From an uncultured Oxalobacteraceae bacterium (lineage in GTDB: Bacteria > Pseudomonadota > Gammaproteobacteria > Burkholderiales > Burkholderiaceae): a stretch of DNA of 11,513 nucleotides. Location of the stretch: the NCBI GenBank assembly GCA_946479255.1, contig CAMLFK010000152.1, positions 1 through 11,513 on the forward strand. The letters run 5' to 3'. Positions 1-11,513 of this stretch are shown here, in pieces. Positions within the stretch are counted from its first letter, which is position 1. Each line of letters starts with the position of its first letter. The notes under the pieces are model-generated. The model did not search any database, was not told the DNA's origin, and saw only the letters and a program-made list of their open reading frames with translations. Made by a program: the position numbers and the translations under genes.

Positions 1-2379
1 GGACGCAGGCGTCGAGCTGACGCCGTCTTCGTCGTTCGCATGCAGCTTGATGTACGAGGGCCCGGTCAGCGGATTGTCGAAAGTGTAGACCACCGAGCCT
101 GCGCCAATGCCATCCTTGAACGATGTGGCCGCCACGCTGACCTCGTCCGCGGCCGCCGCGGTGATGGATGCTTTGACTGAACCGTTGACGGTGCCGGTAC
201 TGCCGTAGGCCGAGATCGTGACCTTTTTCGCATAGTCGCCACTGTAATTGGCGGTAATGCCCTCATTGGCGCTACGCGCGGTGAGCGCGGAGATAAGCAG
301 CGGCTGGCCAGAGTAGGTGAAGGTCAAAGGCTGTGACAGGTCCACGCTGAAATGATGGGGAATGAAGCGGCCGACATTACCTTTGGCCGAGGCACAGGGG
401 ATGCCGCCGGTGCCGGTGTTGCCGGTGGTCCGGGCGAGCCCGGAACCCATGTAGCTGGTGTTTTTCAGCGTTGCGGTGAGGTCGATGAGACCCACTTCGC
501 TCCAGCTGAGGCTCGCCGTTGCGGCGCCGTCGGAGAAGGCGCCGGCACTGCCCGTCAGGGTGCCTGAATTGACGCTCGACACCCCCGGCGCGCACTTGAG
601 GTGGGAGAGCGTGAGCGATTCGGGGGCGCTTTCCATTCCAAAATTTTTCGCAGTGTTGTTGGCAAATGTCTTTGCCGTCACCGTGCCGGTGAAGTTCACC
701 CCAGCCTTGATGAGCGGCGTCTTCATCGCATTGAAACTGAAATTGCTGAAGGCAAAAGTGTAGGGGGCGGCGACGAAGCTGCCGCTGCCCGACATCGACG
801 GGCTGGCAATGCTGGCCGTGATGCTGACCTTGCCCACGTCGGCGTAGCTGAGCGTGGCTTTCGCGGTGCCGCTGGCGTTGAAGGTGAGCGACACCGCCTT
901 GCCCGCGCCGTCGCAGACCGCGGCGTTGTTGCCGGCTGCATTGAGGGCGAAGCCACCAATGCGCACGGGCACGTTGCCGCTGGCCGGGTCCAGATAGGCG
1001 CACTTGAGCGTGACCGTTTTGGCGCCGGTGAAGGCCGGCGCGCAGCTGGTGCTCGAACCGGTGTTCTTGACCGCCCTGAGCGTCAGGAAACCATCGTCGC
1101 TTTCGGCGATGTGATCCGGCGTGTTGACCAGCAGCGCCGCGTCGAGGAAGGCGATCTTGCAGTCCGTGGTGACCGGGCTGGCACCCGTGCCGGTGCAGCG
1201 CAATGGCGGCGGCGAGCTGCCCGACAGATTGATCGTGGCGCTACCGGCGGTGCTCTGGCTGACTGCTGCGGTATCGTTGATGCCGCTTGGGCCGATCGTG
1301 ACGTTGGTGCCGCCGGGATTGAGCGCCACAGTGACCCCGCCCGTGTACAGGCTGCTGCAGCTGGCATTGGCGCAGGCCGTCAGGGTCACGGTTTGCGGCA
1401 TGCAGGTGGAGGCGGTGGTGGGATGGCTGACGCGGATATGATCGGCGCCTGCACCCGCCACCGCCGCACAAGAAGGGCCGTTGGCGGAGTTGACGGCGTA
1501 GCCGCTGTTGTTGATCACGCAGTCGCAGCCACCCGCCGTGGTGCCGCCGGTGCAGTAGATCTTCTTTGCCACGCGCCCCGCCGAGCCGAGCGTTGCCAGC
1601 CGCACGGTAGCGGTGCCGCCGACGTAGGCATTCGATGCTTCCAGGGTCAGCGTGTCGGCCGTTACATTGCCGGTGATCTGGTTGCCGGACGCGAGGAGCA
1701 CGCTGCCGGTGGAGGTGACGTTGCCGGTCAAGACCACATTGGATCCGAGCAGCTTGACGTCGGGCGAATCGAGGTTGCCTGTCATGGCGGCCTGCGATCC
1801 CAGCGAAAACGAGGTGCTCGCGCTCACCGATCCCTGGATCGTCACGTGTGAACTGGCGGCGACCACAGCCCCGGTAATATTGCCGATGACGGTCATGTGC
1901 TCGCCGATGGTGATGTTGCCCGTGGCCTCCAGGGTGCCGGTGATGCTGCCGTGCGACCCGCTTCCGAGCACCAGTTGGGCTGCCTTGAAGTTTGCCGTGA
2001 TGTCGTGCTTCTGGGAACCCATGTAAATGGTGCGCTCACTGACAATCGAACCGCCGGTCAGATCGAGTGACTTGGACTTGATATTGCTGATGTCGATATC
2101 GCGGGAACTGGTGAGGAGCGCGGTGCCGCTCATCTTCAAGCCCTGGTTGTGGTCAAAAACGGCAGCTTCGGACAGCTTGACCTGGATGCCGCTGGCGATC
2201 TCGATGCTATCCTTTTTATCCGCCAGCGCAAGCGTCGAGCAGGTATAGACCGGGGCACTGAAGGTGCAATCGGGCTGCGCGCGTCCATCATAGACATACG
2301 TGTCGGCATGGGCGAAGCCGGTGCAGGCAAGAAGCATGCAAGCCACCAGCCAAGACCCTATGCGCCCCAAAGTGACCAT
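1..2379 (-). CDS. mshQ: MshQ-like DUF6701 secreted protein, C-terminus beyond the window
   Basis: One frame stays open from an ATG at 2379 to the left edge, giving 793 codons without the C-terminus. The start has GGAAGG 8 nt upstream. Residues 1-25 form a Sec signal peptide with a likely cut after AHA. Residues about 75-265 are repeated short strands rich in Gly, Ser, Thr and Asn with a G-N-I/V-T pattern, suggesting a beta-solenoid stalk. A Cys-rich segment follows (about 276-345), then the DUF6701 part: DHIRVSHP at 313-320, paired-Cys immunoglobulin-like stretches, and the signature GRFIPHHF at 670-677. In Vibrio, MshQ is encoded with the MSHA pilus genes and is thought to be a large surface or pilus-associated protein; its exact role is unclear. 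This gene lies divergent to mshI with its own promoter candidate. The family call is firm; calling it the functional MshQ rests on the neighbouring operon. Confidence 0.8.
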   Translation of the reverse strand, partial: MVTLGRIGSWLVACMLLACTGFAHADTYVYDGRAQPDCTFSAPVYTCSTLALADKKDSIEIASGIQVKLSEAAVFDHNQGLKMSGTALLTSSRDIDISNIKSKSLDLTGGSIVSERTIYMGSQKHDITANFKAAQLVLGSGSHGSITGTLEATGNITIGEHMTVIGNITGAVVAASSHVTIQGSVSASTSFSLGSQAAMTGNLDSPDVKLLGSNVVLTGNVTSTGSVLLASGNQITGNVTADTLTLEASNAYVGGTATVRLATLGSAGRVAKKIYCTGGTTAGGCDCVINNSGYAVNSANGPSCAAVAGAGADHIRVSHPTTASTCMPQTVTLTACANASCSSLYTGGVTVALNPGGTNVTIGPSGINDTAAVSQSTAGSATINLSGSSPPPLRCTGTGASPVTTDCKIAFLDAALLVNTPDHIAESDDGFLTLRAVKNTGSSTSCAPAFTGAKTVTLKCAYLDPASGNVPVRIGGFALNAAGNNAAVCDGAGKAVSLTFNASGTAKATLSYADVGKVSITASIASPSMSGSGSFVAAPYTFAFSNFSFNAMKTPLIKAGVNFTGTVTAKTFANNTAKNFGMESAPESLTLSHLKCAPGVSSVNSGTLTGSAGAFSDGAATASLSWSEVGLIDLTATLKNTSYMGSGLARTTGNTGTGGIPCASAKGNVGRFIPHHFSVDLSQPLTFTYSGQPLLISALTARSANEGITANYSGDYAKKVTISAYGSTGTVNGSVKASITAAAADEVSVAATSFKDGIGAGSVVYTFDNPLTGPSYIKLHANDEDGVSSTPAS

Positions 2380-2413
2380 CACAACAGCCTTCCAAACTCA
2401 TCCCGGAGCGCCG

Positions 2414-2422
2414 ATTCTAGCA
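2414..2422 (-). promoter_or_regulatory. Extended -10 promoter candidate for the mshQ-like gene
   Basis: Read on the minus strand, TGCTAGAAT is a TGn plus TAGAAT extended -10 element. It lies about 35 bp before the ATG at 2379, which gives a short leader containing the GGAAGG ribosome site. I see no good -35 hexamer at 17 bp; extended -10 promoters often do without one. The assignment is by consensus only. Confidence 0.4.
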
Positions 2423-2522
2423 TGTGCCCCAAGCCAATATCTTCTTCACCCAGGCGGAATATTTCCGTGGCGCATTGTTCTGCGACGCAAATCCCACGCT
2501 TTCAATTGCTCTAGGTAAAAAG

Positions 2523-2558
2523 TTAAAGAAATCCCCATCAAACTTGAATATAATCAAG
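2523..2558 (+). promoter_or_regulatory. Promoter candidate for the msh operon with a dyad over its -10
   Basis: A perfect TATAAT lies at 2549-2554, about 52 bp before the mshI start, in the only AT-rich patch of the intergenic region. The best -35 is a weak TTAAAG at 2523-2528, with 20-bp spacing, so an activator may be needed. The -10 is enclosed by an inverted repeat, CTTGA (2543-2547) and TCAAG (2554-2558), which could be an operator. It is the only evident promoter upstream of the seven-gene cluster. Confidence 0.45.
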
Positions 2559-2606
2559 CCGCTAGCGCGTGAACTTCATGTGTTGCTAATCTTACAGAAC
2601 GTGGGC

Positions 2607-3551
2607 ATGAGATTTTTCTCGAAACCGAAGAAGACCAAGGGATCGCTGGCGATCGCCTTCGATGGCGAAGGGGTATGCGCGGCCCGCGTTAAGTGGGTTG
2701 ACGGTGCCTTGCCGCAAGTGCGGGTGGCCACCCACCTGCCCGCCAAGGAGCCCCGCTCGGCCGAACTGATGGTCAAGGCCGGCAAGGACCTGCATGCCAA
2801 TCTGTATCAGTTCGCCACCCTGCTCGGCGGCGGCGAGTACCAGTTCCTGTCGGTCGAGGCGCCTACCGTGCCTGCCGAGGAAATGAAAACCGCGATCCGC
2901 TGGCGCCTCAAGGACATGCTCGACTATCCGGTCGACCAGGCCACCATCGACGTGCTCGAGATCGCCGTCGACAAGGCCGCCAGCGGCCGCGCCAACAATG
3001 TGTTCGTCGTAGCGGCGCGCAACAGCGTGATCGAGGCGCGCCAGAACCTGTTTGTCGATGCCGGCCTGAACCTGACCGTCATCGATATCCCTGAAATGGC
3101 ACAACGCAATATCTCGGCCCTGCTGGAAGCGGAAGGGCGCGGCGTGGCCGTGCTGTCCTTCGGCGCCGACGGCGGGTTGCTGACCGTCACCTACCGGGGC
3201 GAGCTGTATCTGTCGCGCCGTATCGATGTGACTGTCGAACAGTTGCGCGATACCGATCACGAGCGCAAGAACACCTGTTACGACAAGATCACTCTCGAAC
3301 TGCAACGCTCGCTAGACCACTTTGAGCGCCAGTACAGTTTCATCAGCGTCTCCAAGCTGGTGCTGGCGCCCACCGGTGCGAGCGGCCTGGACGAATACCT
3401 GTCGAGCAACCTCTACACCAAGGTCGAAACCCTGGACCTGGCCAGCGTGCTCGACCTCTCCGCCGTGCCGGAACTGGCGGCGCCAGCGGTGCAGCAGCGC
3501 TTCTTCATGACGCTCGGCATGGCCTTGCGCCGTGAACAGGCTGTGTCATGA
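2607..3551 (+). CDS. mshI: MSHA biogenesis protein MshI (PilM-like actin fold)
   Basis: The product is a 314-residue cytoplasmic protein with no signal or membrane segment, matching PilM-type proteins of type IV pilus alignment complexes. The start SLAIAFDGEGVCAARV (about residues 13-28) and the block GVAVLSFGADGGLLTVTY (about 190-207) look like the two phosphate-loop strands of an actin-like ATPase fold. PilM-type proteins bind the cytoplasmic tail of PilN; the next gene encodes such a partner. The frame is open upstream to an ATG at 2424, but residues from there do not resemble the family and would overlap the promoter candidate, so I chose the ATG at 2607, in front of MRFFSKPKK. The ribosome site before it is weak. 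The stop overlaps the next start by 4 nt (ATGA), which suggests translational coupling. Confidence 0.85.
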   Translation: MRFFSKPKKTKGSLAIAFDGEGVCAARVKWVDGALPQVRVATHLPAKEPRSAELMVKAGKDLHANLYQFATLLGGGEYQFLSVEAPTVPAEEMKTAIRWRLKDMLDYPVDQATIDVLEIAVDKAASGRANNVFVVAARNSVIEARQNLFVDAGLNLTVIDIPEMAQRNISALLEAEGRGVAVLSFGADGGLLTVTYRGELYLSRRIDVTVEQLRDTDHERKNTCYDKITLELQRSLDHFERQYSFISVSKLVLAPTGASGLDEYLSSNLYTKVETLDLASVLDLSAVPELAAPAVQQRFFMTLGMALRREQAVS

Positions 3552-4183
3552 GCAAGCAGATCAACCTCTTCAACCCCGCCTTGCTCAAGCAAAAGGCGGT
3601 GTTTACCACGGTCACGATGGCGCGCGCGCTGGGCGTGCTGGTGCTGGGCTTGTGCGCGCTGGCGCTGTATGGCCAGCACAAGGTGTCTGGTCTGCAGCAA
3701 GCGGCCGATGCCGGCGCGGAGCAGCTCAAGCAGCGCAAGGCGCGCCAGGCCGCGGTGGCCGTAGAGTTCGCCGCGCGCACCAAGAATGCCAATATCGAGC
3801 AACAGATTGCCCAGGCAGAAGCCCAGGTTCGCGCGCTGCGCGATGTCGAAGGCGTACTGCGCGGCGGCGAACTGGGCGATACCAAAGGGTATGCCGAGTA
3901 TTTCAAGGCACTGGCACGCCAGAGCCGGGGCGATCTGTGGCTGACCGGCGTGTCCATTCAAGGCGCCGGTCAGCAGATCGGTCTGCAGGGCAGGGCGCTG
4001 GAACCGACCCTGGTGCCGGCCTACATCGGCCGCCTGACCCGCGAACCGATTATGCAAGGCAAGAGCTTCGGCAGCTTGCAGATCAGCCAGGCAGTGAGCA
4101 AGGATGAGAAGCCGGTCCCGGCACCTTATATCGAGTTCAGCCTGCAGTCCGAGCTGGCCGACAAGCCGGAGGCAGCGCAATGA
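3548..4183 (+). CDS. PilN-like MSHA pilus assembly protein
   Basis: The product is a 211-residue bitopic inner-membrane protein. Its short cytoplasmic N-terminus contains INLFNPALL (residues 5-13), which corresponds to the PilN tail motif that docks into PilM. A single membrane segment follows at about 22-42. Residues 45-100 are a charged, Gln- and Ala-rich coiled coil, and a small periplasmic alpha/beta domain occupies about 115-200. PilN pairs with the PilO-like protein through these periplasmic parts; here that partner is the next gene, mshJ. The gene overlaps both neighbours by 4 nt and is clearly part of the operon. Some annotations call this protein MshI2 or a PilN-domain protein; I leave the symbol blank because naming is inconsistent. 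Confidence 0.8.
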   Translation: MSKQINLFNPALLKQKAVFTTVTMARALGVLVLGLCALALYGQHKVSGLQQAADAGAEQLKQRKARQAAVAVEFAARTKNANIEQQIAQAEAQVRALRDVEGVLRGGELGDTKGYAEYFKALARQSRGDLWLTGVSIQGAGQQIGLQGRALEPTLVPAYIGRLTREPIMQGKSFGSLQISQAVSKDEKPVPAPYIEFSLQSELADKPEAAQ

Positions 4184-4935
4184 AGAAACGCTTGATTGTC
4201 TTGCGCGACAAGATCGATGCCCTCAGCGTGCGCGAGCGCGTCATGACGTTTGCCGGTGTTGCCGGCGTTCTGGTCTTCCTGTTCTACTCGGTGGTATTGA
4301 CGCCCTTGTTCAAGCGCGAAAAGGCGCTGCGGATCCAGATCACCCAGCAGAACAACAACATCGCCGGGATCGACGCCGAGATCGTGGCGGTCGTGCAGGC
4401 TTACGCCGTGGACCCGGACGCCGTCAGCCGGCTCCGCCTGGCCTCGATTCAAAACGAGGCGATGGCACTGAGCGAATCCTTGCGCACCCAGCAGAGCGGT
4501 TTGCTGGCACCGCAACAAGTTGCGCCATTGCTGGAGACCATGCTGAGCGCCAATGGACGGCTGCGCCTGGTCGACCTGAGGACGCTTCCCGTCAGCCCCA
4601 TGAACGGCAGCGCGGATGCGGCTCCGGCGGTGGCCGGCAGGCCGCCCGAACTCGTTCGCCAGATGGAACAGCTCCAGCAGCTTCAGCCGGGGCAGCGAGC
4701 TCAGCCACAAGCAGCGCCGGCGCTGGCCGCGGCGCCCTTGCTGTATCGCCATGGGGTTGAAGTGGCCGTGCGCGGCAACTACCTGGACATGATCACCTAC
4801 ATGGACGCGTTAGAATCGATGTCAACCAAGCTGATCTGGGGGAAGGCCGAGCTGACCGTTGAAGACTATCCGAATTCGCGCCTGAGCTTGACTGTGTACA
4901 CGCTGAGCCTCGACAAGAAATGGATGAAGCTTTGA
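4180..4935 (+). CDS. mshJ: MSHA biogenesis protein MshJ (PilO/GspM-like)
   Basis: The product has 251 residues: a basic N-terminus with RERVMTF (residues 18-24), one membrane helix at about 22-42, a coiled coil to about 75, and a periplasmic C-terminal domain. A Gln-, Ala- and Pro-rich linker (about 145-185) precedes the conserved end, with HGVEVAVRGNYLDMITY at 191-207 and a strand near LSLTVYTLSLDKKWM. This is the PilO/GspM ferredoxin-like arrangement; MshJ should dimerise with the PilN-like protein and link the cytoplasmic MshI to the MshK/MshL envelope part. A strong GGAGG (4168-4172) lies 7 nt before the ATG. The start overlaps the previous stop by 4 nt, and the 3' end overlaps mshK by 16 nt. 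Confidence 0.85.
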   Translation: MKKRLIVLRDKIDALSVRERVMTFAGVAGVLVFLFYSVVLTPLFKREKALRIQITQQNNNIAGIDAEIVAVVQAYAVDPDAVSRLRLASIQNEAMALSESLRTQQSGLLAPQQVAPLLETMLSANGRLRLVDLRTLPVSPMNGSADAAPAVAGRPPELVRQMEQLQQLQPGQRAQPQAAPALAAAPLLYRHGVEVAVRGNYLDMITYMDALESMSTKLIWGKAELTVEDYPNSRLSLTVYTLSLDKKWMKL

Positions 4936-5273
4936 AACTCCTGTGCCTTGCCGTGATGATGGCCGCGGCGTCCGGCGTCGGCGCGCAGGGTTTGCCGGAT
5001 CCGACCCGGCCGCCTGCCTCGCTGCTGCGCGGCACTGGCGGCGGCGCGGTGGACAGCGGGCCGAAAGCGCCCGCGCTGCCACAGCTGCAGTCGATACTGA
5101 TCGCGCCGCATGAGGGCGGGCGCCACCTTGCGGTGATTGACGGCCAGACCTTGCGTCTGGGCGACACCTATAAAGGCGCCGTGCTAGCCTCGGTGACACC
5201 GACTGAAGTGGTGCTAAAGACCGGCAACAAGCGCCAGGTGCTCAAGCTGTTCCCGACAGTTCCTTCACGATAA
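4920..5273 (+). CDS. mshK: MSHA biogenesis protein MshK (PilP/GspC-like periplasmic protein)
   Basis: This is a small periplasmic protein of 117 residues. A hydrophobic signal segment (residues 5-21) ends near GVGA, with cleavage probably after Ala22. The mature start LPDPTRPP (25-32) is the hallmark of MshK and resembles the Asp-Pro-rich lead-in of PilP/GspC HR domains. Residues 56-112 form the compact beta domain: LQSILIAP, then AVIDGQTLRLGD and VVLKTG. PilP-like proteins bridge the inner-membrane PilN/PilO pair to the secretin, which is encoded next. The ATG at 4920 lies inside mshJ with a poor ribosome site. A TTG at 4932, preceded by GGATGAAGC, would give a more typical signal peptide starting MKLLCL and is a real alternative. 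Confidence 0.8.
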   Translation: MDEALKLLCLAVMMAAASGVGAQGLPDPTRPPASLLRGTGGGAVDSGPKAPALPQLQSILIAPHEGGRHLAVIDGQTLRLGDTYKGAVLASVTPTEVVLKTGNKRQVLKLFPTVPSR

Positions 5274-5301
5274 GAAGTTTAGAGTGGGTATAAAGAAAAG
5301 C

Positions 5302-7092
5302 ATGCATAAATTTCTGGTGATGGCAGGTGTGGTGGCGGGTGTGACAGGAGCCGCGCTGGGGCTGGCCGGCTGCGATACCACGCCCAAGCGCGACACCTAC
5401 GAGGCCATCGGCGCGCAACTGGCGCCGGCCAGGCCGGCCACACCCGCGCTCGACGCGGCCGTGGCCGATGCCCTGTTGCCGCCGGTCTCCTCGCTGGCCA
5501 GCCGCCTGCCCAAGGCAAACCAGGCCCTGGAAGAACGCTTCAATGTGGCGTTCAACAACGTGCCGGCGCGCCAGTTCTTCAATTCCATCGTGGCCGGTAC
5601 CCGCTACAACATGCTGATCCATCCGGACGTCAGCGGCACCATCAGCGCCAACCTGAAAGACGTGACCCTGGCCGAAGCGCTGGACGCGGTGCGCGAAATG
5701 TACGGTTACGAGTACCGCATCGACGGCACGCGCGTGTCGATCAAGCCGCTGACCATGCAAACCCGCATGTTCCAGGTGAACTACCTGGTCGGCAAGCGCA
5801 AAGGGCAGTCGAACCTGCGCGTGAGTTCCACATCGGTGGCCAATGCCGGCGTGAGCAACAGCGGCGGCCAGAACAGCGGCCAGAACGGCAGTGGCAATAA
5901 CAACAATAGCAACAATAACAATCCATCCAACCCGGCCGGTGGCGCCAACCAGCAGCAAATGGACAGCGCCAACGTCACCACCAATTCCGACAGCGACTTC
6001 TGGCTGGAACTGAAGGCGGCGCTCGAAGCCATCGTCGGCCCGTCGGAAAAGGGCGGGCGCAGCGTGGTCATCAGCCCGCAATCTGGCGTGCTGGTGATCC
6101 GCGCCATGCCGGACGAGTTGCGCAGCGTCGACATGTACCTGAAGGCGACCCAGTTGTCGGTCGACCGCCAGGTGATTCTCGAAGCGAAGATCCTCGAAGT
6201 CGAGCTCAACGACAGCTTCCAGAGCGGCATCAACTGGGCCTCGTTCGCCTCCTTCAAGACCGGCCACGACAACCGCGCCTCGGGCGGTTTCCTGTCGCCG
6301 GGCGCCACCTTGCAGCCGCTGCCCTTCGCCGGTGGCCAGCCGCCGCTCATTTCCGACGGTGGCAATTTGTCGGCCAGTACCGGCTTCCTGCTGTCGAACG
6401 CGGCCAACGCGGCCGGCTCGATGTTCGGCCTGGCCTTCCAGACCAGTAACTTCGCCGCGCTGATTTCTTTCCTGGAATCGCAGGGCACGGTGCACGTGCT
6501 CTCCAGCCCGCGCATCGCCACGCTCAACAATCAAAAGGCCATTCTCAAGATCGGCACCGACGAGTTCTACGTGACCGGCGTGACCACCACCACCAATAGC
6601 AGCGCCGCCGGTGCCACGGTCAGCCCGACCGTGACCCTGCAGCCTTTCTTTTCCGGCGTGGTGCTGGACGTGACGCCGCAGGTGGATGATAAGGGCAACA
6701 TCCTGCTGCACGTGCACCCCTCGGTCAGCACGGTGACCACCATCAACAAGGGTATCAACCTCGGCAGTGCCGGCAACCTCAATTTGCCGCTGGCCGCTTC
6801 GTCCACCTCGGAAATCGACAGCGTGGTGCGCGGCCAGGACGGCCGGGTGGTCGCCATCGGCGGCCTGATGCGCCAGTCCTCGGTGGCCGACGGATCGCAG
6901 GTGCCGGGTGCGGGCAAGCTGCCCATCCTCGGCAACTTGTTCCGCAACCGCAGCAATAACAACCAGAAGCGCGAGCTGGTGGTGCTGATCAAGCCGACCA
7001 TCGTCGAAGGGGCCAATGCCTGGAACCAGGACTTGCTCGACACCAAGTCGCGCATCGACAAGCTGGACCCGCGTTCGCAGGAGCTGCGCTGA
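5302..7092 (+). CDS. mshL: MSHA pilus secretin MshL (outer-membrane lipoprotein)
   Basis: This is the 596-residue secretin through which the pilus would cross the outer membrane. The signal peptide ends in the lipobox LAGC (acylated Cys24). Residues about 76-150 match the STN/N0 secretin domain (LEERFNVAFNNVPARQFF). A low-complexity Asn-, Ser- and Gly-rich loop (about 183-220) interrupts the next N-domain, which includes VVISPQSGVLVIRAMP (255-270). The secretin core spans about 288-570, with VILEAKILEVELND, VHVLSSPRIATLNNQKA (397-413) and the late motif VPGAGKLPILGNLFR (534-548). The length fits MshL. The frame also has a GTG start at 5284 (six more residues); I prefer the ATG, though neither has a strong ribosome site. 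MshK is 28 nt upstream and mshM begins 2 nt after the stop. Confidence 0.92.
   Translation: MHKFLVMAGVVAGVTGAALGLAGCDTTPKRDTYEAIGAQLAPARPATPALDAAVADALLPPVSSLASRLPKANQALEERFNVAFNNVPARQFFNSIVAGTRYNMLIHPDVSGTISANLKDVTLAEALDAVREMYGYEYRIDGTRVSIKPLTMQTRMFQVNYLVGKRKGQSNLRVSSTSVANAGVSNSGGQNSGQNGSGNNNNSNNNNPSNPAGGANQQQMDSANVTTNSDSDFWLELKAALEAIVGPSEKGGRSVVISPQSGVLVIRAMPDELRSVDMYLKATQLSVDRQVILEAKILEVELNDSFQSGINWASFASFKTGHDNRASGGFLSPGATLQPLPFAGGQPPLISDGGNLSASTGFLLSNAANAAGSMFGLAFQTSNFAALISFLESQGTVHVLSSPRIATLNNQKAILKIGTDEFYVTGVTTTTNSSAAGATVSPTVTLQPFFSGVVLDVTPQVDDKGNILLHVHPSVSTVTTINKGINLGSAGNLNLPLAASSTSEIDSVVRGQDGRVVAIGGLMRQSSVADGSQVPGAGKLPILGNLFRNRSNNNQKRELVVLIKPTIVEGANAWNQDLLDTKSRIDKLDPRSQELR
5854..5940 (+). 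repeat. Asn/Ser/Gly low-complexity tract inside mshL
   Basis: This stretch encodes about 29 residues made almost only of Asn, Ser, Gly and Gln, including runs of AAC/AAT codons around 5895-5925. It lies in a loop of the secretin N-domains and is probably flexible and length-variable. Repeated trinucleotides make it a candidate slippage site, but the frame is intact here. Confidence 0.6.
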
Positions 7093-7094
7093 TC

Positions 7095-7985
7095 ATGTAC
7101 AGCTCGCATTTCGGCCTGCGCGAAGCACCCTTCGGGATCACTCCCGATACCAGCTATTTCTTCACCAGTCCGCATTCGCAGGAAGCGCTCAACACGCTGC
7201 TGATCGCCGCCCGCAACGGCGAAGGCTTCATCAAGATCACCGGTGAAGTCGGCACCGGCAAGACGCTGTTGTGCCGCAAGTTCATGTCGACCCTGGGCGA
7301 CGACTTCGTTACCGCCTACATTCCCAATCCCTACCTGGAGCCGCGCACCTTGATGTTGGCCCTGTCGGATGAGCTGGAGATCAAGCTCGAGAAAGACGTC
7401 GACCAGCATCAACTGCTCAAAGCCATCACGAACCGCTTGATGGAACTGGCCGCCGAGGACAAGAAGGTGCTGCTGTGCCTGGACGAAGCGCAGGCGATTC
7501 CGATCGAAAGCCTGGAAGCGCTGCGCCTTTTGACCAACCTGGAAACGGAAAAGCGCAAGCTGCTGCAGATCGTCCTGTTTGGCCAGCCCGAATTGAACCG
7601 CAATCTGGCGCTCGACTCGATCCGCCAGCTGGCCCAGCGCATCACCTTTCACTATCACCTCGGGCCGCTCACGCGCGACGACCTGGAGTATTACCTGGCG
7701 CACCGGCTGCGCATTGCCGGCTACACCGGTTCGCGGCTGTTTACGCGCGCGGCGATCCGGCGCCTGTATTCGGCCAGCGGCGGCATACCGCGGCTGGTGA
7801 ATATTCTCGCGCACAAGGCGCTGATGCTCAGTTACGGCCAGGGCAAGCAGCAAGTTACCCTCAGCCACGTGAACGCTGCCGCCAGCGACACCTTGTCAAT
7901 CAAGCGCCGCGTGTGGCCGTGGGCGGCTGGGCTGACGGTGGCGGTGGCCGCCGCCGGTGGCCTCGCATGGGCGGTCGCCCGATGA
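7095..7985 (+). CDS. mshM: MSHA biogenesis AAA ATPase MshM (ExeA/GspA family)
   Basis: The product is a 296-residue ATPase of the ExeA family. FGLREAPFGITPD (residues 6-18) is the family N-terminal signature. Walker A is GEVGTGKT (50-57), Walker B VLLCLDEAQ (125-133), the sensor-1 region LFGQPEL (161-167) and the sensor-2 region GGIPRLVN (229-236), all intact. A single membrane helix at about 274-295 closes the protein. ExeA itself is longer and carries a periplasmic peptidoglycan-binding domain; MshM here stops after the helix. ExeA-like proteins help the secretin pass or assemble at the peptidoglycan; the same role for MshM is an inference. GGAG at 7080-7083 is the ribosome site. The stop overlaps mshN by ATGA. 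Confidence 0.9.
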   Translation: MYSSHFGLREAPFGITPDTSYFFTSPHSQEALNTLLIAARNGEGFIKITGEVGTGKTLLCRKFMSTLGDDFVTAYIPNPYLEPRTLMLALSDELEIKLEKDVDQHQLLKAITNRLMELAAEDKKVLLCLDEAQAIPIESLEALRLLTNLETEKRKLLQIVLFGQPELNRNLALDSIRQLAQRITFHYHLGPLTRDDLEYYLAHRLRIAGYTGSRLFTRAAIRRLYSASGGIPRLVNILAHKALMLSYGQGKQQVTLSHVNAAASDTLSIKRRVWPWAAGLTVAVAAAGGLAWAVAR

Positions 7986-9049
7986 GCCTGATTAATAAAA
8001 TGCTGCAGGACCTGGATGCCCGCGGTACGCAGGGCGCCGGCCCGCAGGCGGCCGAGATCCGTCCCGTGGCACGCCCCGAGCGCCGCTTGCCGCTGCCGGT
8101 GCTGCTGGTCAGCCTGTGCAGTGCGCTGGCCCTGGGCGCCGGGGGCTATGCCGCACTGAAGTTTTTCCAGAACCGCGCTGCAGCACCTGCGCCTGCTGTG
8201 AAGATGGCGGCAGAGCCCATGCCGGCACCGAAGCCTGTGATTCCGGCAGCGCCAGTTGTGCCGGATGTGCCGGCCCCTGTGGCAGAGGTAAAACCGGAAC
8301 CGGAGCCAGCCAAGCCGGTTGCGCCGGTTGAGGTCAAACCGGCAAAGGTCAAGGTCAAGCCGGTGGCAGCCAAGCCGAAGCAGGAAGTAGCGAAGAAGGC
8401 GCCGGCCAAGCGCGTGCTTCCTGCGGCCGCTGTCAAGAAGGCAGCGGTACCGGCCAAGCCGCTTGCGCAGATCCGGCCGCCGCCGAAGCCGCTGGCGGCC
8501 GATCAATATCGCGTTGCCTTGGCACGCATGTCGGAAGGCCGGGTTACCGAAGCGATCGCATCGCTCGAACAGACGCTGCGCACAGACCCGCGCCACGAGG
8601 GCGCGCGCCAGACATTGGTCGGCCTGCTGATCGAAAACGGCCGCCACGACGACGCAATGCGCCACCTCCAGGCCGCGTTGGCGCTCGATGTGCGCCAGCC
8701 ATCGATGGCCGTGCTGCTGGCGCGGCTGCAGATTGAGCGTGGAGGCAATGGCATCGACACCTTGATGCGCAGCTTGCCGGCAGCGGCGGGCAAGCCGGAT
8801 TATCACGCCTTCCTCGCCGGTGCCTTGCAGCGCGCCGGCCGTCACGGCGAAGCGGCCGAGCAGTACATGGCCGCGCTGCGGACCTCGCCGCAGAACGGTG
8901 TCTGGCTGATGGGGCTGGGAATTTCTCTGATGGCCGAGCATCGCAATGCCGATGCCGCGGAGGCGTTCAAGCGCGCCAAGGCTAGTGGCAATTTATCGGC
9001 GCAGCTGCAAAACTTTGTCGAGCGCAAGCTGAATCAGTTAGCGCAATGA
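7982..9049 (+). CDS. mshN: MSHA biogenesis TPR protein MshN
   Basis: The product has 355 residues. MSLINKMLQDLDARG (residues 1-15) is the MshN signature, so I take the ATG at 7982 although the frame is open far upstream to 7475, inside mshM. A membrane helix lies at about 37-58. It is followed by a Pro-, Ala-, Lys- and Val-rich linker of about 105 residues (66-172), long enough to span much of the periplasm. The C-terminal half (about 174-335) is a set of TPR helix pairs, for example MSEGRVTEAIASLEQTLRTDP, RHDDAMRHLQAAL and RHGEAAEQYMAAL. MshN is required for MSHA assembly in Vibrio, but its step is not well defined; a link between inner membrane and secretin is plausible. It overlaps mshM by 4 nt and is the last gene of the operon. 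Confidence 0.9.
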   Translation: MSLINKMLQDLDARGTQGAGPQAAEIRPVARPERRLPLPVLLVSLCSALALGAGGYAALKFFQNRAAAPAPAVKMAAEPMPAPKPVIPAAPVVPDVPAPVAEVKPEPEPAKPVAPVEVKPAKVKVKPVAAKPKQEVAKKAPAKRVLPAAAVKKAAVPAKPLAQIRPPPKPLAADQYRVALARMSEGRVTEAIASLEQTLRTDPRHEGARQTLVGLLIENGRHDDAMRHLQAALALDVRQPSMAVLLARLQIERGGNGIDTLMRSLPAAAGKPDYHAFLAGALQRAGRHGEAAEQYMAALRTSPQNGVWLMGLGISLMAEHRNADAAEAFKRAKASGNLSAQLQNFVERKLNQLAQ

Positions 9050-9072
9050 TCTTGCCTCCGTGCGGGGCGAAA

Positions 9073-10011
9073 CTATAAGCTCGCCAACTCACCCCACACC
9101 TGCTTCATGGTAAAGCGCAGCCTTGCCTGGTCTTCGTGCAGCGCTTCTTCAATTGCGTGCTCAGCGACGTCGGTATTGCGGTGCACCTCGGGCGTGAGCA
9201 TCCGGCCATCGGCGTCACGCAGGGAACACACGTGCACCTCAGGCGTCCCGCGCCACAGCACCACACCCGTTTCGCCATTCGCCAGGCGCACCAGCGTGCC
9301 CGGCGGATAAGCCCCAAGCTCGCGCGCAAAATGGGCCAGCACGGCTGGATCGACCGGCATGGCGCGCTCGGCGCGAAGCCGTGCAAGCGCTTCGGGCGGC
9401 ACCAGCGAACGGCGGTAATTGCGCGCTGAAACAAATGCGCAATAGCGGTCCGCCAGGCCGATCAGCTTGGCGTTCTGGGCGATTTCGTCGCCCATGCGGC
9501 CTTCCGGATAGCCGCTGCCGTCGTCGTTCTCATGGTGCAGGAGCACATAATCGAGCCATTCCTCGTCGGTCACACCGGCCCAGCGCAAGAGCTCGACGCT
9601 GTCGCGCGGATGGCGCCGCACCAGCGCGCGTTCTTCGCTGCTCAGTGCGCCCTCGCGGCTCTGGAAGACATCGGCCTGGCGCACCATGCCGACGTTCATG
9701 GTCAGCGCGGCGGCCGTCACCAGCAGCAACTCGCCATCGGACTTGCCCATGGCGCGCCCAATCAGCGACACCACGATCGCGGTCTCGATGCAATGCCGCA
9801 CCGCGTACGGTCCGGCGATCTGGTTGAGGAAGAGGGCGCCCAGCGCAATGTCGGGATCGCGCCGCACCGTGGCGATCAGTTCGGAGGAAATGGCGCGCAG
9901 CTCGGTATCGGCACTGGCCTCGTCGCGCAGATGCATCAGCGTGCGCTCGAGCCGCTTGTTGAGCTGATTGAGCGCCTGCAGTATCGATTCCTGATGATGT
10001 GCTTCGGCCAA
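9073..10011 (-). CDS. HD-GYP family protein with degenerate HD motif
   Basis: The product has 312 residues from the chosen TTG start. Residues 1-60 are helical; the HD-GYP domain spans about 65-205, with H73, H134, HHENDDGSGYP (159-169) and the D188...RNYR part retained. The position of the canonical L-HD-IGK motif reads L-TMN-VGM (103-109), so the metal-binding His-Asp pair is Met105-Asn106. Classical HD-GYP proteins hydrolyse cyclic di-GMP with a bi- or trinuclear metal site; loss of two ligands makes activity doubtful. Residues 230-280 form a small beta domain. A longer frame reaches an ATG at 10152, but those residues are read out of frame through an aminotransferase tail. The TTG at 10011 has GAGAGG (10021-10026) 9 nt upstream. 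The stop lies 23 bp from the convergent mshN stop. Confidence 0.75.
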   Translation of the reverse strand: MAEAHHQESILQALNQLNKRLERTLMHLRDEASADTELRAISSELIATVRRDPDIALGALFLNQIAGPYAVRHCIETAIVVSLIGRAMGKSDGELLLVTAAALTMNVGMVRQADVFQSREGALSSEERALVRRHPRDSVELLRWAGVTDEEWLDYVLLHHENDDGSGYPEGRMGDEIAQNAKLIGLADRYCAFVSARNYRRSLVPPEALARLRAERAMPVDPAVLAHFARELGAYPPGTLVRLANGETGVVLWRGTPEVHVCSLRDADGRMLTPEVHRNTDVAEHAIEEALHEDQARLRFTMKQVWGELASL

Positions 10012-10020
10012 GATTGCTGT

Positions 10021-10026
10021 CCTCTC
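10021..10026 (-). promoter_or_regulatory. Ribosome binding site deciding the HD-GYP start
   Basis: Minus-strand GAGAGG lies 9 nt before the TTG at 10011 and directly after the stop codon of the aminotransferase tail (10032-10034). The duplicated copy at the right edge has a perfect GGAGG at the matching place (11488-11492), which supports this as the conserved translation start. Confidence 0.55.
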
Positions 10027-10031
10027 GGGTG

Positions 10032-10228
10032 TTACAAACTGGCCACGCGCAGGGGCGCGAGGCGCAGGGTTTCGTCTTCTTGGCAAAGCAGAACCGTACG
10101 ATGCCGGACTCTGTCGCATCGCTGTAAAACGCCGATACGGGGATCGCGGCAACCTTGATTTCCGTGGTCAGCCACTCTGCAAAGTCCGCCTCCAGTATAG
10201 GCGAAATCGCGTCGTACCTGACAGACTG
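10032..10228 (-). pseudogene. C-terminal remnant of a PLP-dependent aminotransferase, frameshifted
   Basis: The minus strand encodes VRYDAIS, then ADFAEWLTTEI, VAAIPVSAFYSD and IVRFCFAKK, which I recognise as the C-terminal end of class I/II aminotransferases of the methionine/kynurenine transaminase (YbdL-like) type. After AKK a single base is missing between 10075 and 10076. Restoring it gives DETLRLAPLRVASL and a TAA at 10032-10034, exactly before the HD-GYP ribosome site. No catalytic part (the PLP lysine region) is present, so only about 66 codons remain. The fragment has no start codon context and cannot be functional. It marks the ancestral order aminotransferase then HD-GYP gene. Confidence 0.7.
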
Positions 10229-10402
10229 CTTAGGTGAGAAGCACCTCTTGCAACGCTGTGTTGGAAACCGTCCGCCCCGCCAGGGTCGCCGCCGATTGCG
10301 CGATTTCATTTGGTCTTTACGCATTTTCGTAATGGCGGCGTGGAGAGTGGGCGCGCAAAATTGCAGCGCTGCCGCTGCGGCGGGGGAAGGTTTTCTAAAC
10401 CT
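10229..10402. other. Non-coding stretch left of the hydrolase gene
   Basis: No convincing gene is present here. The left part has a small hairpin (AGGTG/CACCT around 10232-10246). The right part has a perfect 7-bp inverted repeat, AAGGTTT and AAACCTT with a 3-nt loop (10387-10403), next to the hydrolase promoter candidate. The similarity to the aminotransferase stops at about 10228, so this edge is one boundary of the inserted segment. Confidence 0.4.
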
Positions 10403-10441
10403 TTGTTGCCCTGCATTAAGAATAATTATAGTCAATTGAGG
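10403..10441 (+). promoter_or_regulatory. Promoter candidate and ribosome site of the hydrolase gene
   Basis: TTGTTG (10403-10408) and TATAGT (10427-10432) are 18 bp apart in an AT-rich patch. The ribosome site GAGG (10438-10441) lies 7 nt before the ATG and is clear. With this -10 the transcript would start very near the ribosome site, so the true -10 may lie slightly upstream. On the minus strand the same tract reads TATAAT (10425-10430), which could fire towards the HD-GYP gene. Confidence 0.35.
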
Positions 10442-10448
10442 AAAAAAT

Positions 10449-11348
10449 ATGAGACATGTATGCGCTGCGTTACTTCTCACCACGCTCGTTGCTTGCGGAG
10501 GTGGTAAAAGCGCCAGTAGCCCTTCAACATCAACATCGTCAACTCCCGTCACACCGCCGGTTACGTCGACTCCCGTCACACCGCCGGTTACGTCGACTCC
10601 CGTCACACCGCCGGTTACGAGCACCGCGGGCTGTGGCAGCGGGGCCAAGTTTGCCACCGGCCTGCAGTCGCTCACCAGCGACAGTACCCAGCGCAGCTAC
10701 TGGATCGAGATGCCGGCCAACTACGACCGCAACAAGGCCTATCCCGTGATCATCGGGCTGCACTGGCGTGGTGGGAGCGCCTCCGAGATCTACGGTTGGA
10801 ACGCCTTTTTCGGGCTGAGGAATTTGTACGGCGGCAATGCCATCTTTCTTGCCCCGCAGGGCCTGGATGCGGGTTGGGCCAACCCTGGCGACCGCGACAT
10901 CCGCTTCTTGCGCGCCATGATCAGCGAGGTACAGCAGGGCACTTGCACTGACAATCGGCGGGTCTTTGCTACTGGCTTCAGCTTTGGTGGCATGATGTCC
11001 AACGCCATCGGGTGCCAGATGGGCGACGTGGTGCGCGCGATCGTGCCCATGGCCGGTTCGCTCTGGAGCGGCTGTGCCAATTCTTCCCACAAGGTGGCGG
11101 CCCTGTTCATTCATGCAAAAGACGATACCACGGTGCCTTACTCAGCGGGTGAGGCGGCGCGCGCTACTTTCCTTGCGCGCAATAGCTGTAGTGCCACCAC
11201 ACGGCCACTGGGTAGTAACGGCTGCGTAGAATACCAGGGCTGCGACAGCGACAAGCCCGTGGTTTGGTGCGGCACGGAGACCGGCGGCCACTGGTACCCA
11301 GATTTTTCGCCGAAGGAGTCCAAGACCTTCTTTGATCGGTTCAACTAG
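10449..11348 (+). CDS. Lipoprotein alpha/beta-hydrolase, feruloyl esterase/PHB depolymerase type
   Basis: The product has 299 residues. The signal peptide ends in the lipobox LVAC, with Cys16 as the lipidation site; the next residues are Gly, not Asp, so sorting to the outer membrane is likely. A Ser/Thr/Pro linker holds three exact copies of STPVTPPVT (residues 31-57). The hydrolase domain starts near 65: YWIEMPANYD (84-93), the oxyanion strand VIIGLHWRGG (100-109), the nucleophile motif GFSFG with Ser178, an acid at Asp225 or Asp226 (HAKDDTTVPY) and GGHWYP with His281. Several cysteines probably form disulfides. This is the CE1-like LpqC/PHB depolymerase family; members cut feruloyl or acetyl esters of plant polysaccharides or polyesters, and the substrate cannot be read from the sequence. 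The gene has its own ribosome site and terminator and is unrelated to the pilus operon. Confidence 0.8.
   Translation: MRHVCAALLLTTLVACGGGKSASSPSTSTSSTPVTPPVTSTPVTPPVTSTPVTPPVTSTAGCGSGAKFATGLQSLTSDSTQRSYWIEMPANYDRNKAYPVIIGLHWRGGSASEIYGWNAFFGLRNLYGGNAIFLAPQGLDAGWANPGDRDIRFLRAMISEVQQGTCTDNRRVFATGFSFGGMMSNAIGCQMGDVVRAIVPMAGSLWSGCANSSHKVAALFIHAKDDTTVPYSAGEAARATFLARNSCSATTRPLGSNGCVEYQGCDSDKPVVWCGTETGGHWYPDFSPKESKTFFDRFN
10539..10619 (+). repeat. Three tandem 27-bp repeats in the hydrolase linker
   Basis: Three consecutive 27-bp units (10539-10565, 10566-10592, 10593-10619) each encode STPVTPPVT. Units two and three are identical, and unit one differs by a single base near its start. The near identity at the DNA level points to recent expansion and to possible copy-number variation of the linker between strains. 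Confidence 0.9.
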
Positions 11349-11379
11349 CCGAACAAAAGCGTCGTAAAATTTCTACCGT

Positions 11380-11414
11380 AAAGCCGGCTTCGTAAGAGAA
11401 GCCGGCTTTTTTTT
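11380..11414 (+). terminator. Strong rho-independent terminator after the hydrolase gene
   Basis: A perfect 12-bp stem (11380-11391 with 11398-11409) with the loop GTAAGA is followed by a run of eight T (11407-11414). It starts 32 bp after the hydrolase stop. On the other strand the stem is followed by only three T, so it acts mainly for the plus strand. It would shield the region to the right from hydrolase transcription. Confidence 0.9.
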
Positions 11415-11429
11415 GATGTCGAGCAGTTG

Positions 11430-11492
11430 CTGGCCTCGTCGCGTAGATGCATCAGCGTGCGCTCGAGCCGCTTGTTAAGCTTGCTGTCCTCC
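11430..11492 (-). pseudogene. Duplicated 5' remnant of the HD-GYP gene
   Basis: Bases 11430-11480 match 9914-9964 in the intact HD-GYP gene at 49 of 51 positions and encode LNKRLERTLMHLRDEAS. After 11480 the copy skips about 49 bp of the original (9965-10013), which removes the start codon and first codons, and resumes at 11481 with the ribosome site (GGAGG, 11488-11492). The frame is broken, and similarity ends near 11430, just after the terminator. This is a dead fragment of about 33 codons. Confidence 0.8.
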
Positions 11493-11497
11493 GGGTA

Positions 11498-11513
11498 CTA
11501 CAAGCTGGCCAGG
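11498..11513 (-). CDS. 3' end of a probable aminotransferase gene entering from the right
   Basis: Only the last four codons, LASL, and a TAG stop (11498-11500) lie in the window. They match the VASL-stop end of the aminotransferase remnant at 10032-10045, and the following ribosome site is conserved as well. By analogy this should be the 3' end of the full-length aminotransferase gene, transcribed leftwards. With so few residues the identity rests entirely on the duplication. Confidence 0.45.

Follow-up and report, generated by a model that had tools for sequence, protein, structure and literature searches.

Here, we describe a stretch of 11,513 nucleotides from an uncultured Oxalobacteraceae bacterium (GenBank assembly GCA_946479255.1, contig CAMLFK010000152.1, positions 1 to 11,513; henceforth the window), in which the junction between an aminotransferase gene (AT; Pfam Aminotran_1_2 in the relative L001, Oxalobacteraceae bacterium UBA6018) and an HD-GYP-like gene is partially duplicated around a lipoprotein esterase gene. 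The AT tail left beside the HD-GYP gene contains the heptamer CTATACT, which is probably a sigma-S-type −10 element. Our assessment leans somewhat towards an HD-GYP promoter that lies inside the AT end and towards a division of roles after duplication, with one copy having kept the coding function and the other the promoter. For the wider reading we see roughly even chances: a gene end doubling as promoter of its neighbour would have been duplicated together with cargo on three independent occasions (genome G160 carrying one more, nested insertion) and then divided by evolution, so that one copy only codes and the other only serves as promoter. The apparent scar would thus be a working promoter and the junction would accept new genes only with such a tail. 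New here is that a scar of this kind may be a promoter and that the same outcome recurs at the AT/HD-GYP junction.

The duplication itself is directly visible, as it was in a preliminary description of this DNA. The left copy of the junction (9914..10047, minus strand) comprises the HD-GYP head, the leader and the AT end, and it is repeated at 11430-11513. A repeat search finds 50/52 identical positions between 9914-9965 and the right HD-GYP head fragment (11430..11481, minus strand), with a BLAST E-value of 7e-20 for this 52-bp part. When the reverse complements of 9914-10047 and 11430-11513 are aligned globally, 78 of 84 aligned bases match, with 6 mismatches and gaps of 1 nt and 49 nt; the score of 63.6 compares with a maximum of 14.1 among 1000 shuffles. 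The AT tail that had been reported to reach up to 10228 is alignable in frame from AT nt 961, which corresponds to 10228. It extends to the stop codon as a remnant (10032..10228, minus strand; 79-83% to the AT ends of relatives) that is frameshifted by one missing base near 10080. The right AT copy (11498..11513, minus strand) shows the final codons and the stop at 11500-11498, i.e. only 16 bases before it is cut at the window edge; a full AT would continue beyond 11513, where the visible sequence ends. The right HD-GYP piece resembles the left copy much more than it does L001, L059, L060 or L062 (32-39/52) and therefore belongs to the same or a very close lineage. An assembly artefact at the contig end could be suspected, as only 84 bases of the right copy are visible at the edge, but is very improbable: the right copy differs from the left one by 6 substitutions and the 49-nt deletion. 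Even without the right copy, the left AT remnant reveals an interrupted junction like those of five relatives.

The uninterrupted state of this junction, predicted in the preliminary description, is the prevailing one among the relatives compared. Among 392 sampled genomes HD-GYP matches occur in 161 (E-value threshold 1e-50), and 104 of these 161 were compared. In L001 the AT ends directly upstream of HD-GYP; both genes are adjacent in 93 of the 104 relatives, separated by a longer spacer in 6 and by inserts in 5. In a set of 98 of these relatives, a listed AT on the same contig and strand was present in 93, with gaps (counted to the alignable part of HD-GYP) of 18-266 bases in 89 of them and of 1180-3188 in 4. 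The remaining five of the 98 are G223, G068, G283 and G178 with adjacent genes (gaps 89-179) and G182, which carries an insertion. Six genomes (L133-L138) have 370-449 bases between AT and the alignable HD-GYP, with neither a second AT match nor CTATACT. The AT of L059 (G223) matches in two frames that meet at residue 204/205, which represents a frameshift or an assembly error. Repeat, alignment and the empty site of relatives together support a direct duplication with the hydrolase inserted between the copies.

All five interrupted relatives (G160, G112, G139, G182 and G046) show the same order as the window, namely full AT, cargo, AT-tail remnant and HD-GYP; the remnant in L063 is visible only in nucleotide comparison. 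The cargo is unrelated among the insertions. In G160, G112, G139 and G182 it consists of a 198-aa protein that looks secreted, of a frame of 123-148 aa matching Tox-HDC below cut-off, or of both, and G046 contains two small proteins without any Pfam match over the cut-off. A relative of one G046 cargo protein (49% over 87 aa) is found at 1151-1411 of L099 (G004), just downstream of an AT without adjoining HD-GYP. In the AT tree a clade (99/90) of G160, G112, G139 and G182 stands next to the empty G149, G204 and G193, and G046 groups with G109, G004 and G071. The HD-GYP tree places the window outside the seven-genome clade and beside L001 (93/90), and the ATPase tree groups it with L059 and L060 (85/92); these two trees differ on the nearest kin of the window but agree on its separation from the other carriers. 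Since the window, the four-genome clade and G046 are set apart in this way, three independent insertion events, the window included, have taken place. In L061 (G160) a further cargo is nested between two AT fragments sharing AT nt 901-964 (84% identity), upstream of the CTATACT box.

Insertion recurring at one gene end, with a remnant on one side only, might recall elements that integrate site-specifically at an attachment site within the AT 3′ end and each supply a new AT end. We regard this as extremely improbable: the core differs between remnant and full copy, the remnant starts range from about AT nt 200 to 961, and no recombinase was seen among the cargo frames. Likewise, the frames read at the window and the five carriers contain no integrase or transposase (with Pfam run on six cargo proteins only), in line with the earlier description. 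That description had also named a single crossover (Campbell-type) or a duplication-insertion event as the simplest history; a Campbell-type entry is possible but unproven. The layout of the window fits a single crossover, the left side being complete for HD-GYP and the right side showing the HD-GYP head and the AT end up to 11513. On the other hand, no circular donor, integrase or transposase is seen, and the other carriers duplicate the AT and not the HD-GYP head, for which only a 17-bp match at chance level was found, in L064. The plasmid search for a circular donor was made with the hydrolase alone and returned 4 weak records, none with at least 60% identity. The cargo may have entered by the single crossover that the window fits or by another physical route, the other carriers duplicating AT alone. 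Campbell-type insertion and the merodiploids made by transformation in Streptococcus pneumoniae (PMC3784515) resemble the present case in tandemly duplicated DNA, the involvement of foreign or repeated DNA and one intact copy per gene. However, those duplications comprise about 100 to 900 kb and arise via alternative repeat pairing, whereas in the window the duplication around a small cargo covers a few hundred bases and one copy is a remnant.

The CTATACT box shows opposite fates in the two AT copies. It is located at 10194..10200 (minus strand), about 183 nt before the HD-GYP start codon, and is kept in 6/6 remnants (window, G160, G112, G139, G182, G046) but absent from 5/5 visible full AT copies of the carriers, which have GCGCTGCCC, GCGCTGCCA, CCGATGCCG (twice) and GCGATACCG at this site. 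Given the relatedness of the rows, the corresponding Fisher p of 0.002 overstates the evidence. Of 65 7-mers aligned in all six remnants, CTATACT and TATACTG alone are intact throughout. Compared with the consensus of the empty relatives over AT nt 980-1000, five remnants match at 20/21 positions and the full copies at 13-17/21. Over AT nt 1051-1100 it is the full copy that is better kept in 5/5 carriers, and the same holds over AT nt 1101-1155 in the 4 carriers with an alignable remnant. In the alignment of the empty relatives L001, L059, L060, L062, L066 and L067, CTATACT extends across AT codons 330-332 and uses the Ile codon ATA, which accounts for 4/95 Ile codons in the window genes counted. 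Synonymous change is low over codons 310-333 in the empty relatives (p 0.033 against random codon sets, a post hoc and weak result) but not in three carriers. Because the four-genome carrier clade nests among box-bearing ATs, its full ATs most simply lost the box.

Alternatively, the full AT of the carriers, with the cargo behind it, could have come from a donor without the box, the remnant being the old native tail. A decrease of identity between the full ATs of G160 and G112 and their empty sisters, from 0.85-0.95 to 0.77-0.82 after nt 945, fits a foreign AT end as well as loss of the box. Nevertheless, such a donor is decidedly improbable, as the tree of whole ATs has the four carriers as the sister group of G149, G204 and G193, the decrease is small in G139 (0.85-0.89), and CCGATGCCG of G139 differs from CCTATACTG at three bases.

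The distribution of the box would fit a connection with HD-GYP. It occurs in 9/46 ATs adjacent to HD-GYP versus 0/20 others, two of which (L098 and L107) have a partial HD-GYP match nearby. A pattern comprising the box in its AT context, and not CTATACT alone, gives one match each in 14/373 genomes and 0 in the reversed control; G193 is missed by this pattern (variant base after the box). All 14 matches precede HD-GYP: 13 of them lie at previously known places (including five remnants), and in G232 an AT is followed by an HD-GYP gene split over frames. G004, whose AT is located away from HD-GYP, lacks the box and is sister to the box-bearing G109 (99/82).

In a simpler scenario, a single crossover, or an integration event during transformation, brought in junction-homologous DNA, and the AT tail has no function and decays as a scar. 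This plain insertion-duplication is unlikely. One crossover with a circle would be expected to give the arrangement of the window (full AT and HD-GYP head, cargo, AT tail and full HD-GYP), and by chance alone the box would be retained with a probability that is only moderately low. However, the fate of the box is opposite in remnant and full copy of all 5 carriers in which both are seen, and it precedes HD-GYP in every one of the 14 pattern matches.

The motif also has a known counterpart. CTATACT-type −10 motifs are described for sigma-38 (RpoS) of Escherichia coli in one report (PMC5650638), and another gives CTAtacT as −10 of sigma-38 promoters without a distinctive −35 (PMC3923258). CTATACT at 10200-10194 is found in the orientation of HD-GYP and resembles these promoters by its −10 and by the absence of a clear −35; it differs from those covered there in that the predicted element lies inside the coding end of the upstream gene. 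RpoS scores over its cut-off in 16/17 genomes of the genus. A different role of the box at the DNA level near HD-GYP, as regulator site or small RNA promoter, is rather improbable. A block at AT nt 928-953 is also invariant in the six empty relatives, as a regulatory site might be, but it is absent from the window remnant; moreover, the box equals a known sigma-38 −10 motif in the right orientation, and an Rfam scan of 9900-11513 gave no match.

We infer that the box acts as promoter of HD-GYP and that the tail persists owing to selection for this box. In this proposed history the ancestral order would have been AT followed by HD-GYP, with the HD-GYP promoter (CTATACT as −10) within the last 60 AT codons. 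The entry of foreign DNA, here the esterase gene, would have been accompanied by duplication of the junction. Beside HD-GYP, the AT tail would then decay as a gene while keeping the promoter box, and the full AT would keep coding and be free to lose the box. As the promoter would lie within the AT, an insertion behind the AT stop would separate HD-GYP from it unless the AT tail was duplicated. The nested insertion in G160 lies upstream and leaves the box in place, as a promoter inside the AT predicts.

Several observations weigh against a promoter inside the AT end. By a naive estimate, the box would be retained by chance with a probability of 0.01 if six remnants are counted and of 0.07 if three lineages are, the rows being related, and the box region was chosen after the alignment had been seen. 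Around the box the distant G046 remnant matches the empty consensus at 14/21 positions, compared with 13 for its full copy. Adjacency gives a marginal contrast (p 0.048). The box is missing from 37/46 adjacent ATs and also from six with longer spacers, among the former G071, which is close to G046. The identity decrease in G160 and G112 mentioned above is ambiguous, and the own full AT of the window would lie beyond the visible sequence. A sigma-70 scan of 9900-11513 (−35 and −10 hexamers with 16-18 nt between them) gave 0 promoters, a null that fits the proposed element insofar as the scan requires a −35 and sigma-38 has no distinctive one.

The cargo gene of the window (10449..11348, plus strand) encodes a hydrolase of 299 aa with a lipobox-like start and a Thr/Pro repeat; its esterase core matches Pfam Peptidase_S9 and Abhydrolase_2. 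Residues 58-298 match the feruloyl esterase 8jh8 (PDB) at 4.3e-53, so that the protein can be considered as a feruloyl-esterase-like lipoprotein; from 8jh8 and PHB-depolymerase-type esterases it differs by the lipoprotein-like leader and the Thr/Pro repeat linker, and the depolymerase models remain below their NCBIfam cut-offs. The hydrolase is sporadic, occurring in 13/392 family genomes (E 1e-30; loci L046-L058), of which G353 and G385 contain fragments only. At 7/13 loci the esterase is convergent to one common neighbour gene. The DNA common to the loci ends close to the gene; within the hydrolase leader (10229..10448, plus strand) it extends back to 10395 at most. A terminator-like hairpin follows at 11380..11409 (plus strand), with 1 found versus 1.6 expected in shuffles, which is weak alone. 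A mobile cassette with its own flanking repeats was considered and rejected, as no direct repeat spans the hydrolase at the 13 loci (blastn with word size 11 and E 1e-6, by which shorter repeats would escape). A plasmid origin was rejected as well, all 4 plasmid records being below 60% identity.

The HD-GYP-like gene (9073..10011, minus strand, TTG start; Pfam HD_5 at 8.4e-22), for which we propose a promoter in the AT tail, encodes a protein 75% identical to that of L001 with an N-terminus about 55 aa shorter. A shortening of this N-terminus in both window copies was rejected, because the site concerned falls within the 49-nt gap of the right copy. The sequence HHENDDGSGYP is kept in the window, L001 and L067, and all three have MNVGM at the expected position of the HD dyad. 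The combination of HD dyad and GYP motif that marks a catalytic HD-GYP phosphodiesterase is thus not present in these three proteins, and because MNVGM replaces the dyad the group may be non-catalytic. The HD-GYP-like gene is convergent to the pilus genes that precede it in the window (MshL model over its cut-off). These adjoin a large minus-strand open frame at 1-2382 with a signal-peptide-like start. In a limited literature search no report of this locus was found.

In subfunctionalisation by duplication, degeneration and complementation, two copies of a sequence divide its overlapping roles among themselves. The junction described here resembles this process in such a division, but the roles would be protein coding and the promoter of a neighbour, and cargo accompanies the duplication. 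Beside insertions, short gene remnants are usually dismissed as scars, but the one described here seems to persist for a reason that can be tested. With one motif meeting opposite fates in its two copies, the locus represents a natural experiment on overlapping coding and promoter information, and a simple rule suggests itself by which some junctions would accept new genes only if a tail is duplicated along with them.

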